Both the position numbers and the translations under genes were made by a program. Shown piece after piece: positions 10,739 to 22,614 of a stretch of DNA of 39,630 nucleotides. The notes beneath the pieces are model-generated. The model saw only the letters and a list, made by a program, of their open reading frames with translations, was not told where the DNA came from and made no database searches. The stretch is from Gilliamella mensalis (GTDB lineage: Bacteria > Pseudomonadota > Gammaproteobacteria > Enterobacterales > Orbaceae), in assembly GCF_900103085.1 (NCBI RefSeq), contig NZ_FMWR01000017.1:128040-167669 (forward strand). The letters run 5' to 3'. How positions within the stretch are numbered: position 1 is the first letter of the stretch; every line of letters begins with the position of its first letter.

Positions 10739-11341
10739 ATGGATGACTATCTTGTTAATATCCTTGCCACAACTGTAAAGCTGTTTGCATTAATGACACC
10801 ACCAGCGGTTTTAAGCGCATTTTTGAGCGGTACAAAACAGTATGATGAACAACTTAGGCGTAAAACAGCACTCAAAACATCTTGTGCCGTATTTATCATC
10901 GGTATTGTGCTATTCTTTTTTGGTAATACCATGTTTAGCGTTTTTGGTTTTACGCTTGATGCATTCCGAATTGGTTCGGGAGCATTACTGTTTATCACCG
11001 CAGTTTCGCTAATGAATGACTCACCAGAAAAAAATAAAATTAGTAGTGATGATGATATTAGTGTTGTCCCACTAGCAATCCCACTGTGTATGGGACCAGC
11101 ATCCATCGGTACCATCATCGTTATGGGAACAAGTTCAATTGGCATTATACCAAATATGGTTGGTGCGATTTCATTATTTATCGCATCAATGGGTATTTAT
11201 ATCATGCTATTATGCGCCAAAAGCATTGCAAAAGTACTCAAAAATACAGGGATTGCGATATTATCAAAACTAACCGGGTTACTAATATCAGCTATTGCTG
11301 CACAAGTAGTTTTTACGGGAGTATCTGCTTTTTTAAAATAA
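10739..11341 (+). CDS. MarC family integral membrane protein
   Basis: The 200-aa protein has six predicted hydrophobic helices and the MarC/UPF0056 pattern: an early ALMTPPAVLSAF loop, RIGSGALLFITAVSLM, then VPLAIPLCMGPASIGTIIV, the counterpart of the family's PLAxPLLAGPGAI-type re-entrant motif. Here it reads CMGPASI, slightly divergent. MarC, YchE and YhgN are of uncertain function; amino-acid or metabolite transport has been suggested and the older link to drug resistance was not upheld. I chose ATG 10739 because AAAGG lies eight bases upstream. It is probably monocistronic, convergent with the permease gene at 11508. Confidence 0.82.
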   Translation: MDDYLVNILATTVKLFALMTPPAVLSAFLSGTKQYDEQLRRKTALKTSCAVFIIGIVLFFFGNTMFSVFGFTLDAFRIGSGALLFITAVSLMNDSPEKNKISSDDDISVVPLAIPLCMGPASIGTIIVMGTSSIGIIPNMVGAISLFIASMGIYIMLLCAKSIAKVLKNTGIAILSKLTGLLISAIAAQVVFTGVSAFLK

Positions 11342-11454
11342 TGGGCATACATAATGGAAGGTATTTCATCATAATCATACAAAGCAAACACTCTCTTAAC
11401 TCGGAGAGTTAAAACCAACGTGAATGGAATATTAAAAGCATTAACATCGAATAT

Positions 11455-11483
11455 AATCACCTAAACTGATGCATTAGGTGATT
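11455..11483. terminator. Hairpin between convergent MarC and permease genes
   Basis: AATCACCTAA (11455-11464) pairs perfectly with TTAGGTGATT (11474-11483) across a nine-base loop. It lies 25 bases beyond the permease stop and 114 beyond the MarC stop. There is no U-run on either side, so bidirectional termination is plausible but unproven. A six-base hairpin (ACTCTC/GAGAGT, near 11390-11410) is nearer the MarC gene. Confidence 0.45.
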
Positions 11484-11507
11484 ACAAACTAATTTATGTC
11501 AATAAAG

Positions 11508-12914
11508 TTAATCTAATGTATTAGTTATTAAACAATTGCGTTTTTTATAGAAAACGTAAGAAGCTAAAATAATCATCACTAAAACTACTTCTGATAATAA
11601 AATAAAATAACCTGACTCACCAAACCAAACCCCAATAATAATCACAACATTAACAATGATAGAAATACCAGCAAGCCAAGGAAATAGCGGTGATTTAAAT
11701 TTTATCGTTTCTTTTGGATATTTGCCGCTATTTACACCCTTACGAAATTGATATTGACACCAAGCGATAATAATCCATGCAAAACAGCCTACTTGACCAG
11801 TGCCTGCTACTAAATAAATATATAATTTTTCAGCTGCAATATATTTCGAAAATAGTGAGACTAATGCAATAACTGCAATAAATAATATGCCTTTTGTTGG
11901 TACGCCTCTTTGATTGACTTGAGAAAAGTATTTTGGAGCTAAGTTATCTTGCGCCATAGACCACAGCATTCTTGAACTGGCATAAATGGCTGAATTCGTT
12001 GCTGATATCGCTGCACAAAAGATCACAAAAAGCATCGCATACGAAGCAAATGTAATTCCTGCTTTATTAAATACCCACACAAATGGACTAATTTCAGAAT
12101 GCACTGTTCCATATGGGTAAACGAGGGCTAATACAGCAATAGCTAGGATATAAAATAGAATAATGCGAAAAGCCACACCAGTAATAATTTTAGGTAACAC
12201 CGACTGTGGGGATTGCGCTTCGCCAGCTGCATTACCAATTAATTCAACCCCTTGAAATGAGTAAGTCACGATAGTCATACACACCAATATGGCTAAAAAG
12301 CCATTAGGAAACCATCCACTTTGGGTTTTGAATGTTGGTAAGATATCAGTTTGGGTATATTGATGATAAAGTAAATAAATTCCCACCCCAATAAAAGCAA
12401 TAATCGCGAGTACTTTAATGGTTGAAAACCAATACTCACTTTCACCAAAAGCACGAACAGAAGTTAAATGTACTGAAGTTATAACTGTTAAAATTAATAA
12501 ACAAAAAAGATAAATAGGAATCGAAGGGAAAACTTGGTGGGCAATCATTGAAGCAGCAGTTAAATCTGCAGCCATAGACAAAACCCAACTTAGCCAATAC
12601 AGCCAGCCTATGGTATAGCTCCAAATTGGATTTGGAATAAACATCAATGCATAGTGTTGAAATGAACCGGCATGAGGAAATGCACAAGAAAGTTCGCCTA
12701 AACATAGCATAGTTGAAAGCATTATGCTTCCGGCCATTAAATAAGCAATAATGGTGCCTAATGGACCCACAGTGCTCAGTGGAGCAGCAATACCAATAAA
12801 TAATCCGGTACCAATTGATCCGCCTAATGAAATCATCAACAAATGACGATTTTTTAAGTTTTTCTTTAAATTACTACTGGGATAAGGGCTTTCTTGTGAT
12901 TCAGATGTTGTCAT
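11508..12914 (-). CDS. LysP/AAT-type amino acid permease
   Basis: A 468-aa, 12-helix permease of the amino acid-polyamine-organocation superfamily. The helix 1 break GGSIGTGLFIG, VRAFGESEYWFSTIKV and YSFQGVELIGNAAGEAQSP are shared with LysP-like transporters of basic amino acids and the wider AAT family. It lies last in the leftward dok-like cluster, 54 bp after the racemase, but a good terminator sits in that gap, so it may be made at a lower level or separately. Likely role: uptake of lysine, ornithine or a related amino acid feeding the racemase and decarboxylase. Specificity is inferred from neighbours and family resemblance only. Confidence 0.8.
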   Translation of the reverse strand: MTTSESQESPYPSSNLKKNLKNRHLLMISLGGSIGTGLFIGIAAPLSTVGPLGTIIAYLMAGSIMLSTMLCLGELSCAFPHAGSFQHYALMFIPNPIWSYTIGWLYWLSWVLSMAADLTAASMIAHQVFPSIPIYLFCLLILTVITSVHLTSVRAFGESEYWFSTIKVLAIIAFIGVGIYLLYHQYTQTDILPTFKTQSGWFPNGFLAILVCMTIVTYSFQGVELIGNAAGEAQSPQSVLPKIITGVAFRIILFYILAIAVLALVYPYGTVHSEISPFVWVFNKAGITFASYAMLFVIFCAAISATNSAIYASSRMLWSMAQDNLAPKYFSQVNQRGVPTKGILFIAVIALVSLFSKYIAAEKLYIYLVAGTGQVGCFAWIIIAWCQYQFRKGVNSGKYPKETIKFKSPLFPWLAGISIIVNVVIIIGVWFGESGYFILLSEVVLVMIILASYVFYKKRNCLITNTLD

Positions 12915-12933
12915 ATAAACCGCCTAGTAATTA

Positions 12934-12958
12934 ATAAAAACTGCTGGTTACCCAGCAG
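12934..12958 (-). terminator. Terminator/attenuator between racemase and LysP-like permease
   Basis: On the minus strand CTGCTGG, loop GTAA, CCAGCAG is followed directly by TTTTTAT. This is a classical intrinsic terminator: a seven-pair GC-rich stem with a tetraloop and U-tract. It ends 19 bases before the permease ATG, so any transcript from the sigma54 promoter would meet it before the last gene. Confidence 0.85.
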
Positions 12959-12968
12959 CTAACATAAA

Positions 12969-14075
12969 TTAATAAATAAACCGTTTTTCTACACCATTAG
13001 TTTGACAAGCCATTAGCAAGGCAGTGTAATCGAGTTCAAATCCAATCATATCGCCAACCCGAAGAGTTTTAGCAACATCTTCAATGTCGACCAACGTATG
13101 ATCACTGGTTTGACCCAATACAGTAATATCATCATTGATAGGTATACAACTTTCAGCAGGCACATCTTGACGACCAAAAGCCAGCAAGGCTCGTTTACGT
13201 ATACCATGATCAACAAAGGTTTTACTATTTAAAAAAGCATCTACTCCTAACTCGCCAACAGGCACTGTCGGTTTACTATTGAGTTCAATGATTTGCGCAT
13301 ATAATTTATAAATATTACTACATGCCTTATCAACAGGTTTATTTGAATGATGAAATTCGTCAAGATATTTCATATCTACATATTCAATACCAAACTCGTG
13401 TAAACCACCAATTCTCAAATGATTCAATCCTTCTGGCCAAATACCTTTGTCCAATAAGTGGTAACTCGTACAATTACCGGCCGATAAATATTTTATCTTA
13501 ATATTACAAGATTGTTCTACTTTACGCGCTATTTCTAAAAAGTCTACTCCATTTTTAACTGTAGGTAGCACCGTACCATAGCAGTTAAAATTAGTGCCAA
13601 GCCCATAAAGCTCAACACCTGGTAAAGAAAGAATTAGTTTAACCGTATCTATAATTTCATCAATATGCTCAAACCAAATCCCTTCGCGTAAATCCCCCAT
13701 ATCGACCATTAATAAAACTTGATGAACTTTTTGTTGTTTAACCGCTTCATCAGAAAGTGCTTGAATTACTGCTTTTTCACTATTTAAGCTAATATCTGCA
13801 TACTTAACAACATCACTGATTTCGCTTAAACAAGGGCTACGTAATAAGCAGGTTTTACAACCTAAAGCATCTTTTAATTTCTTAAGATTATATGTTCTTG
13901 ACTCCGCAATCACATCAATACCGCCGTCAAGGACGGCTTTGGCCGTTTCAACGCAGCCATCGAAGACTTTATTAACAGCCATAACTTCAATGCCGTGTTT
14001 AGCTAACAGATCTTTTTCAACACGAGCATTGTTTTTTAATTTGCGTAAATCAATTTCTAATATAGGCTTGTACAT
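12969..14075 (-). CDS. Alanine/ornithine racemase family PLP enzyme
   Basis: A 368-aa fold-type III PLP enzyme. The N-terminal barrel has VMAVNKVFDG with Lys36 as the expected PLP-binding residue, then MVDMGDLREGIW, LSAGNCTSYHLL and LRIGGLHEFG, which fit the alanine/ornithine racemase group (Orr of Clostridium sticklandii type) rather than housekeeping Alr. In this context it probably interconverts L- and D-ornithine or L- and D-lysine, feeding the D-specific decarboxylase encoded upstream in the same operon. It follows the antiporter gene after 22 bp. Substrate is inferred from context; racemases of this group vary. Confidence 0.82.
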   Translation of the reverse strand: MYKPILEIDLRKLKNNARVEKDLLAKHGIEVMAVNKVFDGCVETAKAVLDGGIDVIAESRTYNLKKLKDALGCKTCLLRSPCLSEISDVVKYADISLNSEKAVIQALSDEAVKQQKVHQVLLMVDMGDLREGIWFEHIDEIIDTVKLILSLPGVELYGLGTNFNCYGTVLPTVKNGVDFLEIARKVEQSCNIKIKYLSAGNCTSYHLLDKGIWPEGLNHLRIGGLHEFGIEYVDMKYLDEFHHSNKPVDKACSNIYKLYAQIIELNSKPTVPVGELGVDAFLNSKTFVDHGIRKRALLAFGRQDVPAESCIPINDDITVLGQTSDHTLVDIEDVAKTLRVGDMIGFELDYTALLMACQTNGVEKRFIY

Positions 14076-14097
14076 ATTTTTACTCCTCTATATATTA

Positions 14098-15507
14098 TTA
14101 CTGCTGCAAACGATTACGTTTTTGTGCTCGGTAATAGATCCATTCAGCTAAACCAATAGCAAGCACGGCACCACCAACAATTTTAGCGATATACTCAACA
14201 TACCCCCCCATATCAATTTGGGCAGGAGGAATAAACACTAATATCACTGCAAATAGAGTAGATAAGAATCCAAGTGCTGGTAATACAACCGGCATCACTT
14301 TACCTGGAATTTTAAAGCTACGCGGTACATCAGGTTGAGTAATACGCAAACGATAATATGCAATAAACATCACTAAATATGGAATAAAGTAACAAATTGT
14401 CGTTAATGCAGTTAACATCCAATATGCCGCTGCAATGCTCGGTGATACAAAGGTTGAAAAACAAAGTACAGTTACAATAATGGCTTGAATAATGAGTGCA
14501 AAAGCCGGCGTTTTGTATACTGGGTGTAAACGACCAATACGTTCGCCAAGTAAATTATCTTCTTTTGATGCTTCTTGTAGCATATAGATAGGACCAACTA
14601 ACCATGAGTTGATTTGTCCTAATGCACCAAAAAATAAGCAAATTGCCATTATTGGTAATAACCAAGGCATATGTAACTCTTTGGCTGCTGCCTCCATTGC
14701 CTGCATAACACCCGCTACAATATCAGTATCAGCTGCCGGTAATAAAGTATTAATAGCCCATGTACCAACCATATAAATACCGACAATTACAACCGCTGAA
14801 ACCAACATCGCTTTAGGGAAGTCGCGTTGTGGATCTCGTGTACGCCCTGCAATCATTGGTGCAACTTCAAGACCTGCAAATGCAAACATCATACTAGATA
14901 AAAATACGATAGTATCCCAACTACTTAGATCAGGAAGCCAATCACTAGCATGACTATAGCTTGTTGCCATAGGGTGCCCCATTAATAACCACACAATAGC
15001 TAAGACAACAATAATAGCAGCAGGAATAAATACACCAAGCCATGCACTAACACTATTAATAATCTTAGTCCATTGCATCCCTTTAATATTCATCAGTGTC
15101 AAAATCCAGAATACAATCATAGAACCTACACCAATAAATACCTGATTCTGAGCTAGCTCGGCACTAAACATGTATCCAATTGCAGTAAAACCGAATTGCA
15201 ACATTAACGGGAAGAACAGCACACACGAGAATAGGAAACACACCACAACAATCCAACCAATGCGTTTACCAAAGGCCTCTTTAACCCATACAAAAATCCC
15301 ACCATCTTTTGGCCAGCCAGTTGAAAGTTCACCACAAACCATGGCTAATGGGAAGAATAGACAAAATGCAGCAAGTAGCCAAAGCACCATTGCTGACGCT
15401 CCGTATGGAGCAACATTAGGAATTTGACGTAAACTCAGTATCGCAATGACATTCATAAACACAATGTCTTTGATACCAAGTAAACTTGAATCTTTAGAAT
15501 CACTCAT
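14098..15507 (-). CDS. APC-family antiporter-like amino acid permease
   Basis: This 469-aa, 12-helix membrane protein begins LLGIKDIVFMNVIAILSLRQ and has GELSTGWPKDGGIFVWVKEAFG and FAFAGLEVAPMIAGRTRDP. These are typical of the glutamate:GABA antiporter/basic amino-acid antiporter branch of APC transporters, many of which exchange an amino acid for its decarboxylation product. Lying 54 bp after the decarboxylase, it may exchange ornithine or lysine for putrescine or cadaverine. Salmonella has a transporter gene at the same place beside dokD (from memory, STM2359). A 9-bp hairpin sits between the two genes. Confidence 0.82.
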   Translation of the reverse strand: MSDSKDSSLLGIKDIVFMNVIAILSLRQIPNVAPYGASAMVLWLLAAFCLFFPLAMVCGELSTGWPKDGGIFVWVKEAFGKRIGWIVVVCFLFSCVLFFPLMLQFGFTAIGYMFSAELAQNQVFIGVGSMIVFWILTLMNIKGMQWTKIINSVSAWLGVFIPAAIIVVLAIVWLLMGHPMATSYSHASDWLPDLSSWDTIVFLSSMMFAFAGLEVAPMIAGRTRDPQRDFPKAMLVSAVVIVGIYMVGTWAINTLLPAADTDIVAGVMQAMEAAAKELHMPWLLPIMAICLFFGALGQINSWLVGPIYMLQEASKEDNLLGERIGRLHPVYKTPAFALIIQAIIVTVLCFSTFVSPSIAAAYWMLTALTTICYFIPYLVMFIAYYRLRITQPDVPRSFKIPGKVMPVVLPALGFLSTLFAVILVFIPPAQIDMGGYVEYIAKIVGGAVLAIGLAEWIYYRAQKRNRLQQ

Positions 15508-15525
15508 AATAACCTCACATTATCA

Positions 15526-15553
15526 TATCTGGGGCATAAATTGCCCCCAGATA
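15526..15553 (-). other. Intercistronic hairpin between decarboxylase and antiporter genes
   Basis: TATCTGGGG (15526-15534) pairs with CCCCAGATA (15545-15553) with a ten-base loop. No U-tract follows on the minus strand, so processing, stabilisation of the upstream dokD mRNA or partial pausing is more likely than termination. Confidence 0.5.
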
Positions 15554-15561
15554 ATTGATGA

Positions 15562-16959
15562 TTAATATATGTCATATCCAACCATATCTTCGTAAGTATC
15601 TTCACGACGAATTAATCTATCTTTACCGTCTTTATCGATCATTACAACCGATGTACGAGGACGATTGTTATAGACTGTTTGGCTTTCAATGGTATAAGCA
15701 CCTGCATCAAGAAAAGCAACGATATCACCAACTTGTGTGTCTTTTGGCATTAAGAACTCTTCACCTTTCACACCGACATGGTAATAGTCACCACCATCAC
15801 ATAAAGGACCGGCTAATTTAATATATTCATCATGTGCTTCATTGATTTTTGAAGCGTTATAAACATAGAAGAACCAATCAAAATGCTGACTATCAGATAA
15901 AACGCTATAACCTGCATCAACAAATTTCCATTCAACATGCTCTTCAATGTTGCCGTCTAAATCGTAATTAGTTTTACGTTTTTCACAGGCAACTTCAGTT
16001 ACAAGCACGCCCGCTGAACCTGTTACTTTACGCCCAGGTTCAATACAAATTTCAACATCGGTGCGCCATTTGTGCACTTCGCTAATCACTGCATCAGCAA
16101 AGTCTTGTGCGGTTATGCCTGCATACATATTATCTTGCAATGGGTTACCATTTTCTTCGTCATATTTATATGGAACAGGAATACCACCACCAACATTGAT
16201 TAAATCAAATTTAATACCAAGTACTTCTTCTAAACGACGTGATTCATCAACTAATACTTTAGTTGCTTTTGCAAAAGGTTCTGCTTCAGGTACTTGATCC
16301 CCTACATGCATATGTAAACCACGTAAATGTACATAAGGCATATCCAAAATTCGACGACAAGTCTCTTCTGCTTGTTCTAAATCGATACCTGATTTAGCAT
16401 GATAAGCCGTTACTAGTTCTGCGTGAGTAGCAGATGGGACATTCGGTTCAACGCGCACACAAACATTTGCTACTTTTTTCAAACGTGTTGATATTTCATC
16501 AATAATATCAAGTTCATATAAACTATCGACATTGATGATATACAGATCATTTTGGATAGCAAATTCTAAATCCACCGGTTTTTTTACCACGCCGTTAAAC
16601 ACAATTTGACTACCACTAAAGCCGATTTCTAAGCATTTGCGTACTTCAAACATAGAATTCGCCTCAGCATAGATACCCGCATCTTTAATCGCTTTTAGCA
16701 CGCCCATAACAGAACAAGTTTTTGAAGCATAGAAAATTTTTGTATTCGCATGGGTCTTAAATGCATCTTTAATTTCTTGCACATTACGATCAATTTCCTT
16801 TTCAGAAAACACATAAAAAGGGGTAGGATATTTTTTTGCTAACTCTTCTAAATTAACGCCATCTAAACATAATTTACCGTTTTCGGCACTGAAACGGCGA
16901 TCTTTAGTTACAAGATCTGTGCGTAATTTGTTATAATTTGACATAATTGCGTCGGACAT
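15562..16959 (-). CDS. dokD: D-ornithine/D-lysine decarboxylase (DokD type, fold III PLP enzyme)
   Basis: A 465-aa member of the LysA/eukaryotic ornithine decarboxylase fold. [10 protein letters not shown] holds the PLP lysine (Lys80 by my count), GLHMHVGDQ and [10 protein letters not shown] bind the cofactor phosphate, CIEPGRKV is the C-terminal phosphate loop, and [12 protein letters not shown] carries the active-site cysteine at residue 387. Salmonella STM2360 (DokD), which decarboxylates D-ornithine and D-lysine with inversion, has the same length and, as I recall, the same cysteine number and neighbours. The racemase, transporter and sigma54 regulator here match that cluster, so DokD is preferred over diaminopimelate or L-lysine decarboxylase. 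GGAGG precedes the first ATG by four bases; Met6 is an alternative start. Confidence 0.83.
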
Positions 16960-17023
16960 ATGACCTCCAGTTAATTAGTGCATAAAAAGTACAAAAAAAT
17001 AAAAAATGGTTTCTCACATATAG

Positions 17024-17040
17024 TGCAATCAGCATGCCAA
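17024..17040 (-). promoter_or_regulatory. Sigma54 (-24/-12) promoter of the dokD operon
   Basis: The minus strand reads TTGGCATGCTGATTGCA. It matches the TGGCACG-N4-TTGCW consensus at all but one position, with exactly 10 bp between the invariant GG and GC. It points towards dokD, whose ATG is about 65 bases downstream. The divergent gene encodes a sigma54 activator, which makes a chance match unlikely. Confidence 0.9.
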
Positions 17041-17056
17041 CTTTAAAATTACAAAT

Positions 17057-17069
17057 AATCAATTTGTTA
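17057..17069 (-). promoter_or_regulatory. IHF-binding site in the dok control region
   Basis: AATCAATTTGTTA matches the IHF consensus WATCAANNNNTTR at every defined base. It lies between the sigma54 promoter and the palindromic activator site, as expected for DNA bending that brings the activator to the polymerase. Confidence 0.65.
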
Positions 17070-17120
17070 ATAAAAAAAGTATAAGTAAAGATTTAGTCAT
17101 TTAGTATAAAATATGTTTTT

Positions 17121-17138
17121 ATGACAAAAATTTGTCAT
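17121..17138. promoter_or_regulatory. Candidate upstream activator sequence for the divergent sigma54 regulator
   Basis: ATGACAAA, two central bases, TTTGTCAT: perfect eight-base inverted arms centred about 118 bp upstream of the inferred dokD transcription start and about 90 bp before the regulator's ATG. RocR-type activators bind eight-base inverted repeats of this kind. A second shorter palindrome, GCTAAATTTAGC, is at 17177-17188, inside the regulator's leader, and could mediate autoregulation. Confidence 0.6.
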
Positions 17139-17219
17139 TTTCATATGATGGTTGAAAGGAATGTAAATTAAATTTGGCTAAATTTAGCAAATAATCCAAA
17201 TATTGAAGGTACTAATATC

Positions 17220-18656
17220 ATGACCATTGATCCTGAATTATTACAAGCATTGGAAATATTTAAACATTTTTTCGATTTAATCCATCAGCCGATAGCTATT
17301 ATCGATAAAAATGGCAATTATATTTATTATAATCAGGAAAGCGCTGAACTGGATGGTTATCCTAAAGACCAAGCGATTGGCAAACCAATGCTTGAGGTTT
17401 ATCCTAATTTAAAAAAGGAAGATAGTACGATGTTGCAAGCCTTGCAACTCGGTAAAGAATATCAAGACAACTACCAATCTTATTATAACCATGTTGGTAA
17501 AGTGGTTGATTACTTGCATACCACCGTTCCACTTTATAATGATAAAAAAGATATCATTGGTGCTATTGAAATAGGCAGAAACCTATCAGCAGTTCGACAC
17601 CTACAAGATCAAGTTTTGAAATTAAACAGCAAATTATACCAAAATAAAGAACAGCCATTACCCGATATTGTTTTTGTATCAGAAAAAATGCAGAAAGTTA
17701 TCGATCAAACCAATATGTTAGGGCGCAATGATGTTCCAGTATTAATTGTGGGCGAAACCGGAACAGGTAAAGAGCTATTTGCTCGTTTAATACACAAAAC
17801 AAGCCAGCGCCGAGATAAAGCTTTCATCTCGCTTAATTGTGGTGCACTACCGACTACACTGATCGAAAGTACTTTATTTGGTACAGTAAAAGGTGCATTT
17901 ACAGGTGCTGAAAACCGTCAAGGTTACTTAGAACTCGCTAATGGGGGTACATTGTTTCTTGACGAATTAAACGCGATGCCACTTGAAATGCAAAGCAAAT
18001 TATTACGATTCCTTCAAGAAAAAACTTATTGGCAATTAGGTGGTAATAAAGAAATGCATTCTGATGTTCGTATTGTTGCTGCCATGAATGAATCACCAAC
18101 AGAACTATTGAAAACAGGAAAAATAAGAAGCGATTTATTTTATCGATTAAATGTCGGTTTAATAAAACTTCCCGCTTTACGTGACAGAACAGAAGATATT
18201 CCCGTTTTAGCACGCTATTTTATTGATAAACATAAAAACGATGTTAATGTCGTAATTAGTGGTATCAGTCAACAGGCTCTACAACAATTAATGACCGCCC
18301 CTTGGCCGGGTAATGTGCGTATGCTTGAAAATGCAATTGTCAGAAGCATGGTATTACAAAACAAATCAGGTGAATTACAGCATATTACTCTTGATGAAGA
18401 GCTCTTTGAACTTAACAGTTCATTTTTCCAAGACGATAAGATACATAAACCTGACAAAACACCTATCAATAAATCTACTCATGAAAACAACTTAACTGAA
18501 CAAGTTGAGAACTATGAACGGCAACTGATCATTGATGCATTAAATCAGGCCAATGGCAAAATTATCACGGCCGCAAAACAATTAAATATTTCGCGCACAA
18601 CGCTACAATATAAGGTCAAAAAATACAATATTCACATGGGTGTCATTGATGATTAA
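17220..18656 (+). CDS. PAS-AAA+-Fis sigma54-dependent activator (RocR/STM2361-like)
   Basis: A 478-aa enhancer-binding protein. Residues about 15-130 form a PAS sensor (DLIHQPIAIIDKNGNYIYYN). The AAA+ domain (about 150-385) has Walker A GETGTGKE at 178-185, the sigma54-contact loop GAFTGA at about 225-230 and Walker B GGTLFLDELN. A Fis-type helix-turn-helix ends the protein (NGKIITAAKQLNISRTTLQYKVKKY, recognised from ITAAKQLNISRTTLQYKVKK). The PAS half resembles B. subtilis RocR, whose family responds to ornithine or arginine catabolites. Divergent from dokD across a 260-bp control region with sigma54, IHF and activator sites; it most likely activates the decarboxylase operon. Confidence 0.92.
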   Translation: MTIDPELLQALEIFKHFFDLIHQPIAIIDKNGNYIYYNQESAELDGYPKDQAIGKPMLEVYPNLKKEDSTMLQALQLGKEYQDNYQSYYNHVGKVVDYLHTTVPLYNDKKDIIGAIEIGRNLSAVRHLQDQVLKLNSKLYQNKEQPLPDIVFVSEKMQKVIDQTNMLGRNDVPVLIVGETGTGKELFARLIHKTSQRRDKAFISLNCGALPTTLIESTLFGTVKGAFTGAENRQGYLELANGGTLFLDELNAMPLEMQSKLLRFLQEKTYWQLGGNKEMHSDVRIVAAMNESPTELLKTGKIRSDLFYRLNVGLIKLPALRDRTEDIPVLARYFIDKHKNDVNVVISGISQQALQQLMTAPWPGNVRMLENAIVRSMVLQNKSGELQHITLDEELFELNSSFFQDDKIHKPDKTPINKSTHENNLTEQVENYERQLIIDALNQANGKIITAAKQLNISRTTLQYKVKKYNIHMGVIDD

Positions 18657-18669
18657 TGCAATCATCAAT
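18645..18669. terminator. Hairpin spanning both stop codons of convergent genes
   Basis: ATTGATGATT (18645-18654) pairs perfectly with AATCATCAAT (18660-18669) around AATGC. The hairpin covers the last codons and stop codons of both the sigma54 regulator and the flavoprotein gene, which are only eight bases apart. No U-tract is present, so its value as a bidirectional terminator is uncertain. Confidence 0.4.
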
Positions 18670-19846
18670 TAAACGCTTGAGCACACGCAAATGCACTGCT
18701 CCATGCCCATTGGAAATTATAGCCTCCTAACCAGCCTGATACATCAACAACCTCACCAATAAAATAAAGGTTCGGGTATGTTTTAACAGCCATAGTTTTG
18801 GATGACAACGCATCAGTACTTACTCCCCCTAGAGTCACCTCGGCGGTACGATAACCTTCTGTACCATTTGGAGTAATGCTCCAGTGTGTTAATGTATTAT
18901 ACAAGTCTTGCTGTTGTTTAAGATCTAGCTGCTTAACTGTTATGTCCTTTATCAAATTCAGTTTTATTAATTCTTCAATAAGCCTTTTAGGTAAAATTTT
19001 TGCTAAGCAATTTTTTATAGTTTGATTACGATTTTGTGCTAATAATGGTTTAAACGATGAATCAAATGTTAAATCGGGTAATAAATTGATAGTAATTGAC
19101 TCACCTGCTTGCCAATAACTCGATATCTGCAAAATAGCAGGTCCTGAAAGCCCTCGATGGGTAAATAATAGATTTTCTTTAAAACTAATTCTTTTATTAG
19201 AAACTTCAACAGGAATTGCAATGCCTGACAAGGTTGATAACACATCCAGTAAAGGTTTATGTAATGTAAATGGAACTAGCCCTGCTCTTACCGGCACCAC
19301 TGGAATATCAAATTTTTCGGCAATTTTATAACCAATTGAAGTCATACCAAGAGCAGGCATAGATAAACCACCAGTTGCAATAATAAGATTTTCACAATCA
19401 ATCATGCCACGAGAAGTATGCAACTTAAATCCAAGCCCATCACTATCAATATCTTCAACTTGAGTTTGCATCATAAACTTAACATGCCCTTTTTGACACT
19501 CGTTTATGAACATATCAACAATATCTTGCGCTGAATTATCACAAAATAATTGCCCATGATCTTTTTCATGATAGGCAATATTATATTGATTCACTAATTG
19601 AATAAAATCCCACTGGGTAAAGCGTTTTAAAGCCGATTTACAAAAATGCGGGTTGCTAGAAATATAATTACTCGACTCCACTGTTAAGTTAGTAAAGTTA
19701 CATTTACCCCCACCAGACATTAAAATTTTACGTCCCAGCTTTTTACCATTATCAAACACAGTAACATCATATCCTTTTTGACCGAGTAAGCCCGCACAAA
19801 AAAGCCCAGCAGCGCCAGCACCTACAATTGTAATTTTAGTTTGCAT
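18665..19846 (-). CDS. yhiN: HI0933/YhiN-family FAD-dependent flavoprotein
   Basis: The 393-aa protein begins MQTKITIVGAGAAGLFCAG, an FAD Rossmann motif, followed by NGKKLGRKILMSGGGKCNFTN, THRGLSGPAILQISSYWQ and the C-terminal FIGEVVDVSGWLGGYNFQWAW. These closely match E. coli YhiN and the HI0933 family (BaiN/aminoacetone-oxidase-like annotation). The reaction is unknown. I chose the ATG at 19846, where the alignment with YhiN begins; a GTG 18 codons upstream would add a stretch unlike the family. No SD is apparent before the ATG. It is convergent with the dok regulator. Confidence 0.9.
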   Translation of the reverse strand: MQTKITIVGAGAAGLFCAGLLGQKGYDVTVFDNGKKLGRKILMSGGGKCNFTNLTVESSNYISSNPHFCKSALKRFTQWDFIQLVNQYNIAYHEKDHGQLFCDNSAQDIVDMFINECQKGHVKFMMQTQVEDIDSDGLGFKLHTSRGMIDCENLIIATGGLSMPALGMTSIGYKIAEKFDIPVVPVRAGLVPFTLHKPLLDVLSTLSGIAIPVEVSNKRISFKENLLFTHRGLSGPAILQISSYWQAGESITINLLPDLTFDSSFKPLLAQNRNQTIKNCLAKILPKRLIEELIKLNLIKDITVKQLDLKQQQDLYNTLTHWSITPNGTEGYRTAEVTLGGVSTDALSSKTMAVKTYPNLYFIGEVVDVSGWLGGYNFQWAWSSAFACAQAFN

Positions 19847-20463: not shown

Positions 20464-21078
20464 TCAACTCTTTTGTATTTTTGCTTTGTTAAAAAATAGA
20501 TAAGCAAGTATAGCAACAATAAAATTACCTAAAGCTGCAAATATCGTTACAACATTAAGAGTAAAATAGCTAAATAAAATAAATCCTGTTAAAGCTGCAC
20601 CAACTGCCGCACCAAAAGTATTAATAGAATAAAGATGTCCAGTGGTTTGACCTATATTTTTCCAAAATTGAGCAATATAAGTAATTAAAATTGGAAGTGT
20701 TGCCCCCATTAAAAGTGCCGGAACAAGCACCAATAAAAAATTAACAATCGCAACAACGATCAAACTATAAACAATAAAAATATCCCCAATAAATAAGATA
20801 AGTTGATAACTAATTAGCCCAAATAAACCAATGCCAAATTCACTAAAACAAAAAAACTGTAGTGCTTTATTAGGGTATTTATCGACAATTTTTCCGCCAC
20901 CAAGTGCACCTAAACCAAGGCCTAACATAAAGGCCGATACAATAATTGCAACAGAATCAACATCGGACCCAAACGCAGAATAAAGTGCCCGTTGCCAAGC
21001 AACTTGATAAGTTAATCCGCTCATTCCAGAAATAAAAAATAGAGTACTTAATAGTAGTAATTGTTTTTTGGTTAACAT
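20464..21078 (-). CDS. Membrane protein homologous to the TM half of spermidine-synthase-like fusions
   Basis: A 204-aa protein with about six hydrophobic helices and no soluble domain. GMSGLTYQVAWQRALYSAFG near the N terminus, FMLGLGLGALGGGKIVDKYP and GHLYSINTFGAAVGAALTGF are typical of the membrane half of fused MFS/spermidine-synthase proteins. The neighbour 9 bp upstream has equivalent segments (GLMSLGQEMLWFRIVSFMLG and VYFFNIVGSTLGSLLIGGIF), so the two are paralogous in the membrane and may pair. AAGGAA precedes the ATG. It could be a natural TM-only partner or a fusion protein that lost its C-terminal domain; the clean end favours the former. Function unknown. Confidence 0.72.
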   Translation of the reverse strand: MLTKKQLLLLSTLFFISGMSGLTYQVAWQRALYSAFGSDVDSVAIIVSAFMLGLGLGALGGGKIVDKYPNKALQFFCFSEFGIGLFGLISYQLILFIGDIFIVYSLIVVAIVNFLLVLVPALLMGATLPILITYIAQFWKNIGQTTGHLYSINTFGAAVGAALTGFILFSYFTLNVVTIFAALGNFIVAILAYLFFNKAKIQKS

Positions 21079-21087
21079 AAAGGTTCC

Positions 21088-22614
21088 TTATTTATTTCCA
21101 AAAATTCCGTATTTATATTCTGTTATCATATTGCTATCGGTAATAATTTCCGTTTCCCGCTCCAAATTATAAAGTTTTTCAACATCATCTAAACTTAATA
21201 ATTTTGTCACTAAGGTTTTCTTATAAGCACCGTTTGCAAGTTGTTTTGACTCTTCATTAAATAACGGTCTACCATCTAAAACTAGCTTATCAAGACGCTC
21301 TTTACCAACACTTTCATCAATTTTAATTATTGAATCAGAAGCATAAATAAAGCCAAGTGTGCCCCAATATGCATGGTTAAATACCGATTGGGCGGTTTTT
21401 AATGTATCAGGTGAACGAGTACTATTAAAAGCCAAAATACCATCAGGATTTAATGAATCATGTAATATTTTCATCATCTCTTGCGATAATAAATTAGTTG
21501 AACCTGAACGCCAATGATAAGTGGTATTCATAACGATTAAATCATATTTTTTGTCACTATTTCGTTTAAGCCAACGCCGACCGTCATCAATGTAGATATT
21601 AATTTTAGGATCATCTAATATTGGTGAGACAACCGCATATTGCTTAATAATATCTAGATAGCCTTTATTGATTTCAATAGCATCAATGGTTTCTAATGTT
21701 GGGAAACTTGATAATGCACGAGTCCATGCCCCACCACTCACTCCAATAACCAGCGCTTTTTTAGGGTTTGGGTGGATTGCCGCTAATAAGTAAAGTCGAT
21801 TTAGGTCATTTATATCAGTATCTGGATCTACATTTAAAATACCATCATACATCCTATTACCTAATATAATATTTTTTCTTCCGTAACTATCATCATCGAC
21901 GATATGAATTACACCATAACGATTTTCTATATAATAACTGATGGATGCCTCTTCTTTGAGCATATTTTTGAAAATATAATCAGTATGTTTATCCACTAAA
22001 TAAAAGCAACTACTACCAACTACAACAACACCAATAATAGAAAATATCGATTTTTTAATTATCATCAACCCGCCTAATAAGATACAAACGATACCGATTA
22101 GAATGAACATTGATGAAATAGAGATATAATCAAGAAAAATACCACCAATTAATAAGCTACCTAGCGTTGAGCCAACAATATTAAAGAAATAGACTTTAGA
22201 TACAGATGCACCTACTTTTCCATCGGCAATGCGCGTACCTAAATGGTGTACGAGGGGAAATAATATTGCCTTTAAAGCTGCAACGATAAATATTAAAATA
22301 CAACATATAGATAACCATAGTCCTAATGCGCTTACTTGAGTGGCGCATTGAATGATAAATGGCGTCAATATATCAATAAAACCCGCAAAGATTAAAACTA
22401 TCCCACCAGCCAATAATAGGTTTGAATAGCGTGTACAAATCGCCTTACCTCTATTTGCTCCAAAGGCAATACCTAATAGGAAAAAGAACAGCACGATTGC
22501 AAAAGCATAAGGTGCGCCTCCCAACATAAAACTAACTATTCTAAACCAGAGCATTTCTTGCCCTAAGCTCATAAGTCCAACTAAAAGCGAAATACACCAA
22601 GCAAAATATTTCAT
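21088..22614 (-). CDS. Membrane-anchored spermidine-synthase-like SAM-fold protein, catalytic motif altered
   Basis: A 508-aa protein with about seven helices in residues 1-215 and a soluble SAM-type Rossmann domain after about 230. ALVIGVSGGAWTRAL occupies the GGGDGG position of spermidine synthase, IDAIEINKGY the EID position and IYIDDGRRWL the DDG position. The catalytic block DSSDP is replaced by VMNTTYHWRSG, so the aspartate that deprotonates putrescine is absent. It probably binds SAM or a relative but should not be a normal aminopropyltransferase. First gene of a two-gene leftward unit. Related fusions exist in proteobacteria without known function. A polyamine connection to dokD is only suggestive. 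Confidence 0.72.
   Translation of the reverse strand: MKYFAWCISLLVGLMSLGQEMLWFRIVSFMLGGAPYAFAIVLFFFLLGIAFGANRGKAICTRYSNLLLAGGIVLIFAGFIDILTPFIIQCATQVSALGLWLSICCILIFIVAALKAILFPLVHHLGTRIADGKVGASVSKVYFFNIVGSTLGSLLIGGIFLDYISISSMFILIGIVCILLGGLMIIKKSIFSIIGVVVVGSSCFYLVDKHTDYIFKNMLKEEASISYYIENRYGVIHIVDDDSYGRKNIILGNRMYDGILNVDPDTDINDLNRLYLLAAIHPNPKKALVIGVSGGAWTRALSSFPTLETIDAIEINKGYLDIIKQYAVVSPILDDPKINIYIDDGRRWLKRNSDKKYDLIVMNTTYHWRSGSTNLLSQEMMKILHDSLNPDGILAFNSTRSPDTLKTAQSVFNHAYWGTLGFIYASDSIIKIDESVGKERLDKLVLDGRPLFNEESKQLANGAYKKTLVTKLLSLDDVEKLYNLERETEIITDSNMITEYKYGIFGNK

Follow-up and report, generated by a model that had tools for sequence, protein, structure and literature searches.

A putative sigma54-controlled dok operon of Gilliamella mensalis that probably decarboxylates basic amino acids via their D-forms

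A stretch of 39,630 nucleotides from Gilliamella mensalis (contig NZ_FMWR01000017.1, positions 128,040 to 167,669; hereafter the window) contains a locus built around dokD, the gene for a D-ornithine/D-lysine decarboxylase. This locus is a real, complete operon of a known kind, that of the Salmonella STM2361/STM2360-2356 locus. The operon is probably controlled by sigma54, decarboxylates basic amino acids via their D-forms and is orthologous to Salmonella STM2361/STM2360-2357. New here are a candidate enhancer box, a strain that has lost the regulator, and the finding that canonical decarboxylases are missing from Gilliamella. The source genome measures 2.28 Mb and is 99.99% complete. All five reading frames listed in an earlier note on this DNA were found in place, and the parallel that the note drew with Salmonella holds, as the same five genes occur there in the same order. 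The genes are:

15562..16959, minus strand: dokD, encoding a fold-III pyridoxal-5′-phosphate (PLP) D-ornithine/D-lysine decarboxylase of 465 amino acids
14098..15507, minus strand: gene for an APC-family antiporter, GadC-like, of 469 amino acids
12969..14075, minus strand: gene for an Orr-like PLP racemase of 368 amino acids
11508..12914, minus strand: gene for an APC-family amino-acid permease, LysP/MmuP-like, of 468 amino acids
17220..18656, plus strand: divergent gene for an enhancer-binding regulator of the PAS-AAA(sigma54)-Fis helix-turn-helix type (PF08448, PF00158, PF02954), of 478 amino acids

The decarboxylase scores 886.3 bits on the curated DokD model NF052544 (cut-off 700) and matches the solved Salmonella enzyme 6n2h over its full length (E-value 5.5e-270), which bears out its description as DokD-like. 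With DokD of Salmonella arizonae/diarizonae it shares 83% identity, likewise over the full length. The substrates of the Salmonella enzyme are D-ornithine and D-lysine, and its C387A mutant retains ~1% activity (available text of PMC13294871). We infer from the sequence that the Gilliamella decarboxylase acts on the same two D-amino acids. In an alignment of 19 DokD rows, 176 of the 465 positions were invariant, among them K80, C387 and Y430. Going by the title of one paper, the Y430F exchange reportedly alters stereospecificity. Two observations weigh against the DokD assignment. Firstly, 71 of the 176 invariant positions, including these three residues, are common to the genome's own LysA; the three residues are therefore not diagnostic of DokD. 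Lys80 and Cys387 thus stand at the positions that had been proposed for them, but by themselves they do not mark DokD. Secondly, DokD reaches the LysA model TIGR01048 with 2.5 bits to spare (300.4 versus 297.9). It is nevertheless not a member of the LysA family, since the DokD model scores far better and the genome has a LysA of its own. The stretch following C387 separates the two proteins, reading CDGGD in DokD versus CESSD in LysA. In a phylogenetic tree with one LysA row, the Salmonella-type DokDs formed a set (100/100) apart from that row. The Gilliamella sequences formed a clade (98/96) whose neighbours the tree leaves open, as it does 6 of its 21 inner branches.

Genome contigs were scanned for DokD, yielding 51 records, 25 from Gilliamella and 26 from other bacteria; the scan depends on exact peptide patterns and is not a census. 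The closest named record was that of Gilliamella sp. Pas-s25, with a 100% identical DokD. The order dokD-antiporter-racemase-permease was present in 24 of the 25 Gilliamella records, the remaining contig ending within dokD; 24 records cover the place of the divergent regulator, and 23 of them have it. These loci are close kin and not independent, which lessens what their agreement can say for our interpretation. Beyond Gilliamella, the five-gene order was found in 11 of the 26 records (Mixta, Citrobacter, Kluyvera, Edwardsiella, Salmonella, Yokenella and two Syntrophomonas-type), one of them, a Kluyvera (L035), having broken frames. Three others (two Sutterella and Photobacterium) combined the four structural genes with a downstream regulator, one (Veillonellaceae) had the order antiporter-racemase-dokD, and in 11 a dokD-like gene was the only one of the genes sought. 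Eight of these 11, from Aquitalea and Oxalobacteraceae (L043, L044, L046, L048-L052), form a DokD-like group of 52-57% identity; in the stretch available, none of them matched the antiporter, racemase, permease or regulator. This group possibly uses another substrate.

Two elements between dokD and the regulator may account for the control of the operon:

17025..17039, minus strand: sigma54 (-24/-12) promoter TGGCATGCTGATTGC of the dokD operon, the sole site of its pattern in the window
17121..17138, no strand: candidate enhancer (upstream activating sequence, UAS), a perfect inverted repeat ATGACAAA-TT-TTTGTCAT with a 16-base core and a conserved position

The promoter of Salmonella STM2360 is given as TGGCATGCCTTTTGC in the accessible part of PMC3844500. 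A loose -24/-12 pattern was present upstream of dokD in all loci that have the regulator, both in Gilliamella (23/23) and elsewhere (14/14), and in 35 of these 37 loci the pattern takes the 15-base form that ends in TTGC, the exceptions being L034 and L041. Among the 12 loci without a regulator, three have a loose sigma54 match and none the TTGC form. As for the inverted repeat, its 16-base core begins 98 bp upstream of the -24 element in the source locus, the consensus TGACRAATTTTYGTCA covers the Gilliamella variants, and the spacing to the promoter is 97-99 bp in 23 Gilliamella loci. In all nine Enterobacterales loci with an adjacent regulator, the same consensus was matched at 12-16 of 16 positions, at a distance of 96-98 bp from the -24 element; in seven of the nine, at most 3 of 500 shuffles were as good. 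We therefore regard the inverted repeat as a candidate enhancer for the dok regulator. Several points speak against this. The box was weak (12/16) in two Edwardsiella, with 33 and 45 of 500 shuffles as good, though the repeat is a perfect palindrome there. In one Sutterella it matched 14/16 but at 112 bp, and no convincing box was found in the other Sutterella, the two Syntrophomonas-type loci or Photobacterium. Moreover, while the exact box occurs once in the window, sites with up to three mismatches numbered 8 versus 3.56 expected, in a window that is AT-rich. The box, which is also present in the Salmonella arizonae/diarizonae loci, gives a concrete test site for the Salmonella-type dok regulator.

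The regulator is 57% identical to its Salmonella diarizonae orthologue, and the source genome has its own rpoN. Its domains confirm the earlier description as a sigma54 activator, but not the likeness to RocR: the best model was PrdR (NF041552; 360.7 bits, below the cut-off of 795), and no RocR model was among the 25 matches listed. In a review of 2016, STM2361 is described as uncharacterised, with 'NK' entered for both its signal and its binding site (accessible part of PMC4987338). One strain, Gilliamella sp. Choc4-2 (L022, 8404-9000), retains all four structural genes but has lost the sigma54 promoter, and all that is left of its regulator is a single remnant match of 65 columns. This loss, a single case, fits a dedicated regulator-promoter pair. 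The best box match in Choc4-2 is 13/16 with a degraded left arm; since another locus that kept its promoter (L024) also reaches just 13/16, the decay of the box is not clear-cut.

The remaining three proteins were assigned less specifically. The antiporter, which occupies the same place in relatives, has GadC (4dji) as its best solved relative, in agreement with the antiporter-like permease noted before. It probably exchanges ornithine for putrescine or lysine for cadaverine. The racemase belongs to the alanine-racemase fold (PF01168, 75.8 bits, cut-off 24.1), and its Lys36 in the motif VNKV, invariant in an alignment of 18 sequences, is probably the lysine that binds PLP. Its AlphaFold2 (AF2) model has a predicted local distance difference test (pLDDT) score of 81.1, and the best Protein Data Bank folds were mostly alanine, serine and lysine racemases (template modelling, TM, scores 0.66-0.75). 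The permease matched models of the S-methylmethionine, gamma-aminobutyrate and LysP type, all below cut-off; its best solved relative is the lysine-specific permease 9eyd (5.2e-76), and it is 59% identical to the orthologue in S. diarizonae (L029). Against a specific role of these proteins in ornithine or lysine metabolism it must be said that neither transporter exceeds the cut-off of any specific model, the antiporter reaching only 321.2 bits on the GadC model TIGR03813 (cut-off 650) and 301.2 bits on NF053662 (cut-off 640). In the same vein, the near full-length match of the racemase to the Orr model NF040742 (365.7 bits) stays below the cut-off of 480, as does that of its S. diarizonae orthologue (353.5 bits), and some aldolases, which the fold fits too, were among its structural matches. 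Of the proposed ornithine/alanine racemase-like enzyme the general type thus stands, but not membership in the Orr family. Because all three proteins remain below named-substrate cut-offs, 'ornithine or lysine' is deduced from DokD and the context.

The permease had been taken for an addition to the gene set. This idea is contradicted by synteny: a permease gene lies behind the racemase gene in Salmonella, Citrobacter, Kluyvera, Edwardsiella, Mixta and Yokenella, a UbiX-family gene follows it in L029, and the published operon, in the available text of PMC3844500, comprises STM2360-2356. Its recurrence in the same place makes the permease part of the shared gene set. Downstream of it in the window lies a convergent gene for a MarC-family membrane protein, the dok locus being situated beside marC and rplS. 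Two hairpins lie within the operon:

12939..12960, minus strand: terminator-like hairpin with a T-run between the racemase and permease genes (a possible attenuator), from the terminator scan
15529..15550, minus strand: hairpin without a T-run between dokD and the antiporter gene, from a comparison of hairpins across loci

The claim that the permease lies beyond a terminator is correct insofar as a terminator-like hairpin with a T-run precedes it. The terminator scan by itself, however, is no evidence, because the five terminator-like sites in 11340-18700 are no excess over the shuffle mean of 5.0. A hairpin in this gap was found in all five other Gilliamella loci checked (with a clear T-run in four) and, without a T-run, in four of six enteric loci. 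In the gap between dokD and the antiporter gene, other hairpins occur in several enteric and both Syntrophomonas-type loci, and three Gilliamella (L003, L015, L022), L027 and L041 showed no perfect one.

We surveyed diamine enzymes in 35 Gilliamella genomes, 30 of them at least 90% complete, and in nine genomes from four other genera of Orbaceae. DokD was over the cut-off in 31 of the 35 (28 of the 30) and in none of the nine. It was missing from G026 and G027 (both 99% complete) and from G031 (59% complete), and it lay in two pieces on two contigs in G030. Fold-I basic amino acid decarboxylases (PF01276) were over the cut-off in none of the 35 Gilliamella genomes, ten of which gave sub-cut-off matches of about 18-21 bits, and in three of the nine other genomes, all of one genus. 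In that genus (g3), three of four genomes (G037, G038, G039) have a fold-I decarboxylase and no DokD over the cut-off, the reverse of Gilliamella. Matches to PF02784 numbered at most two per Gilliamella genome, at the places of LysA and DokD, which leaves no match for a SpeA or carboxynorspermidine decarboxylase. Likewise, neither SpeD nor the pyruvoyl arginine decarboxylase (PF01862; search control positive only in three archaea) was found in any of the 35. Ornithine carbamoyltransferase was present in 33, and ornithine is thus likely also made inside the cell. Among the families sought, DokD looks like the only recognisable diamine-forming enzyme of Gilliamella. It is conceivable, and we suggest it tentatively, that diamine formation in this genus of bee gut symbionts proceeds solely via D-amino acids: decarboxylases of the canonical kind for L-ornithine, L-lysine and arginine would be missing genus-wide, and the dok operon, which was found in no other Orbaceae genus sampled, would be the sole source of putrescine or cadaverine in this core gut member. 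If true, Gilliamella would be a natural D-amino-acid-dependent diamine producer. Since G026 and G027 also have no PF01276 match over the cut-off, not every Gilliamella need make diamines.

Neither the gain nor the loss of the operon could be read from these two genomes, as no clean empty site was found. In G026, marC and baiN, between which the dok locus usually lies, are separated by ~4.8 kb of unrelated frames; by eye, repeated frames there (L071:4726-8364) resemble surface proteins. The 19-kb stretch examined in G027 showed no marC. Transfer from enterics was considered and dropped. The identities of DokD versus TrmD to L029, L027 and L023 (83-85% versus 79-80%) and to L041 (77% versus 76%) do not prove it, and neither does the native-like guanine-plus-cytosine content of the five genes (0.354-0.394; window 0.365), while the tree leaves the neighbours open. 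Elsewhere in the window (20464-22614, minus strand), one of two adjacent frames encodes an MFS-like membrane fragment and the other a Spermine_synth-domain (PF01564) protein, and the pair is matched in five Gilliamella loci (L003, L004, L009, L011, L013). As the genus is without SpeD, the second protein is perhaps not a true spermidine synthase.

From homology we propose the following mechanism for Gilliamella, in which the enzyme activities, the binding of the box, the direction of transport and the signal are all predicted. The PAS-type enhancer-binding protein would sense a signal and bind the inverted repeat ~98 bp upstream of the -24 element, driving expression of dokD, antiporter and racemase with partial read-through into the permease gene. 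L-ornithine or L-lysine would be imported by the permease and/or the antiporter and converted to the D-isomer by the Orr-like racemase. Decarboxylation of the D-isomer by DokD would then take up a proton and yield putrescine or cadaverine, which the antiporter would export in exchange for new substrate. A dedicated sigma54 activator combined with an antiporter is usual in inducible catabolic systems. This combination favours a role in energy or acid stress, and we infer that the operon mainly serves pH or energy balance rather than the polyamine supply of the cell. In Salmonella, STM2360-2356, ending in ubiX, is up-regulated in an rpoN-dependent manner (available text of PMC3844500).

The converse view is that the operon mainly makes putrescine or cadaverine needed by the cell, as the usual enzymes are missing (PF01276 over the cut-off in 0/35, PF01862 in 0/35, PF02784 accounted for by LysA and DokD). 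We nevertheless consider it unlikely, given the control by a dedicated activator and the antiporter, and because two 99% complete genomes lack DokD and have no PF01276 match over the cut-off, so that members of the genus can do without a diamine enzyme. The authors of PMC7857480, as far as that text was available, also considered it unlikely that D-ornithine decarboxylase (D-ODC) belongs to polyamine metabolism. Somewhat less likely still is a scavenging system, in which the permease would import D-ornithine or D-lysine from other gut bacteria for decarboxylation by DokD, while the racemase, working in reverse, would feed L-ornithine or L-lysine into metabolism. The D-substrates of the Salmonella enzyme (PMC13294871, available in part) and a D-serine/D-alanine/glycine transporter model among the permease matches (252 bits, cut-off 732) would suit such a system, but the best solved relative of the permease is lysine-specific. 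Finally, the decarboxylase is almost certainly not a second meso-diaminopimelate decarboxylase: for all the residues common to LysA and the narrow excess over its model, that reading is countered by 886 versus 300 bits, the genome's own LysA, CDGGD versus CESSD after C387 and a tree setting the DokDs apart from the LysA row, so that the check for clustering with such enzymes did not refute the DokD proposal.

Turning to the bee gut, we found no publication on Gilliamella and diamines or polyamines that describes the dok operon, judged by titles and abstract openings. A large share of Gilliamella in bee-gut diamines finds no support in papers on the bee metabolome. In the parts of these papers available, cadaverine fell significantly only in bees without Bombilactobacillus (PMC13214017) or was attributed to other bacteria (PMC13299595), and no mention of ornithine, cadaverine or lysine was found (PMC5726620). 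One table, in the accessible part of PMC11434166, gives lysine and ornithine decarboxylase tests as 'nd' for all six Gilliamella strains, and the diamine prediction would be cheap to check. Being a background without recognisable L-specific decarboxylases, Gilliamella suits testing the role of a D-amino-acid decarboxylation operon.

Among known systems, the Salmonella STM2361/STM2360-2356 locus is the closest, sharing all five genes as well as their order and orientation. Compared with S. diarizonae/arizonae, identities are 83% for DokD, 81% for the antiporter, 75-76% for the racemase, 57% for the regulator and 58-59% for the permease. Both loci have the same type of sigma54 promoter and the same box, which in Salmonella lies 97 bp from the -24 element. 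In S. diarizonae a UbiX-family gene directly follows the permease gene, which fits the terminal ubiX of the published operon (PMC3844500, available in part). The Gilliamella locus differs in that no ubiX follows the permease gene in the window, a hairpin with a T-run precedes it, and the chromosomal site is another one (marC, rplS). The racemase resembles Orr (NF040742) in its near full-length match and racemase-type fold, and differs in missing the cut-off. Clostridial Orr serves the oxidative ornithine pathway, whereas the partner of the Gilliamella racemase is a decarboxylase. Acid-resistance systems that pair a decarboxylase with an antiporter include CadAB, SpeF-PotE, AdiAC and GadBC. The dok locus is alike in outline, with a decarboxylase beside an APC-type antiporter that is nearest GadC, although under all cut-offs; it stands apart from these pairs by its fold-III, D-specific decarboxylase, its racemase and its sigma54 control.

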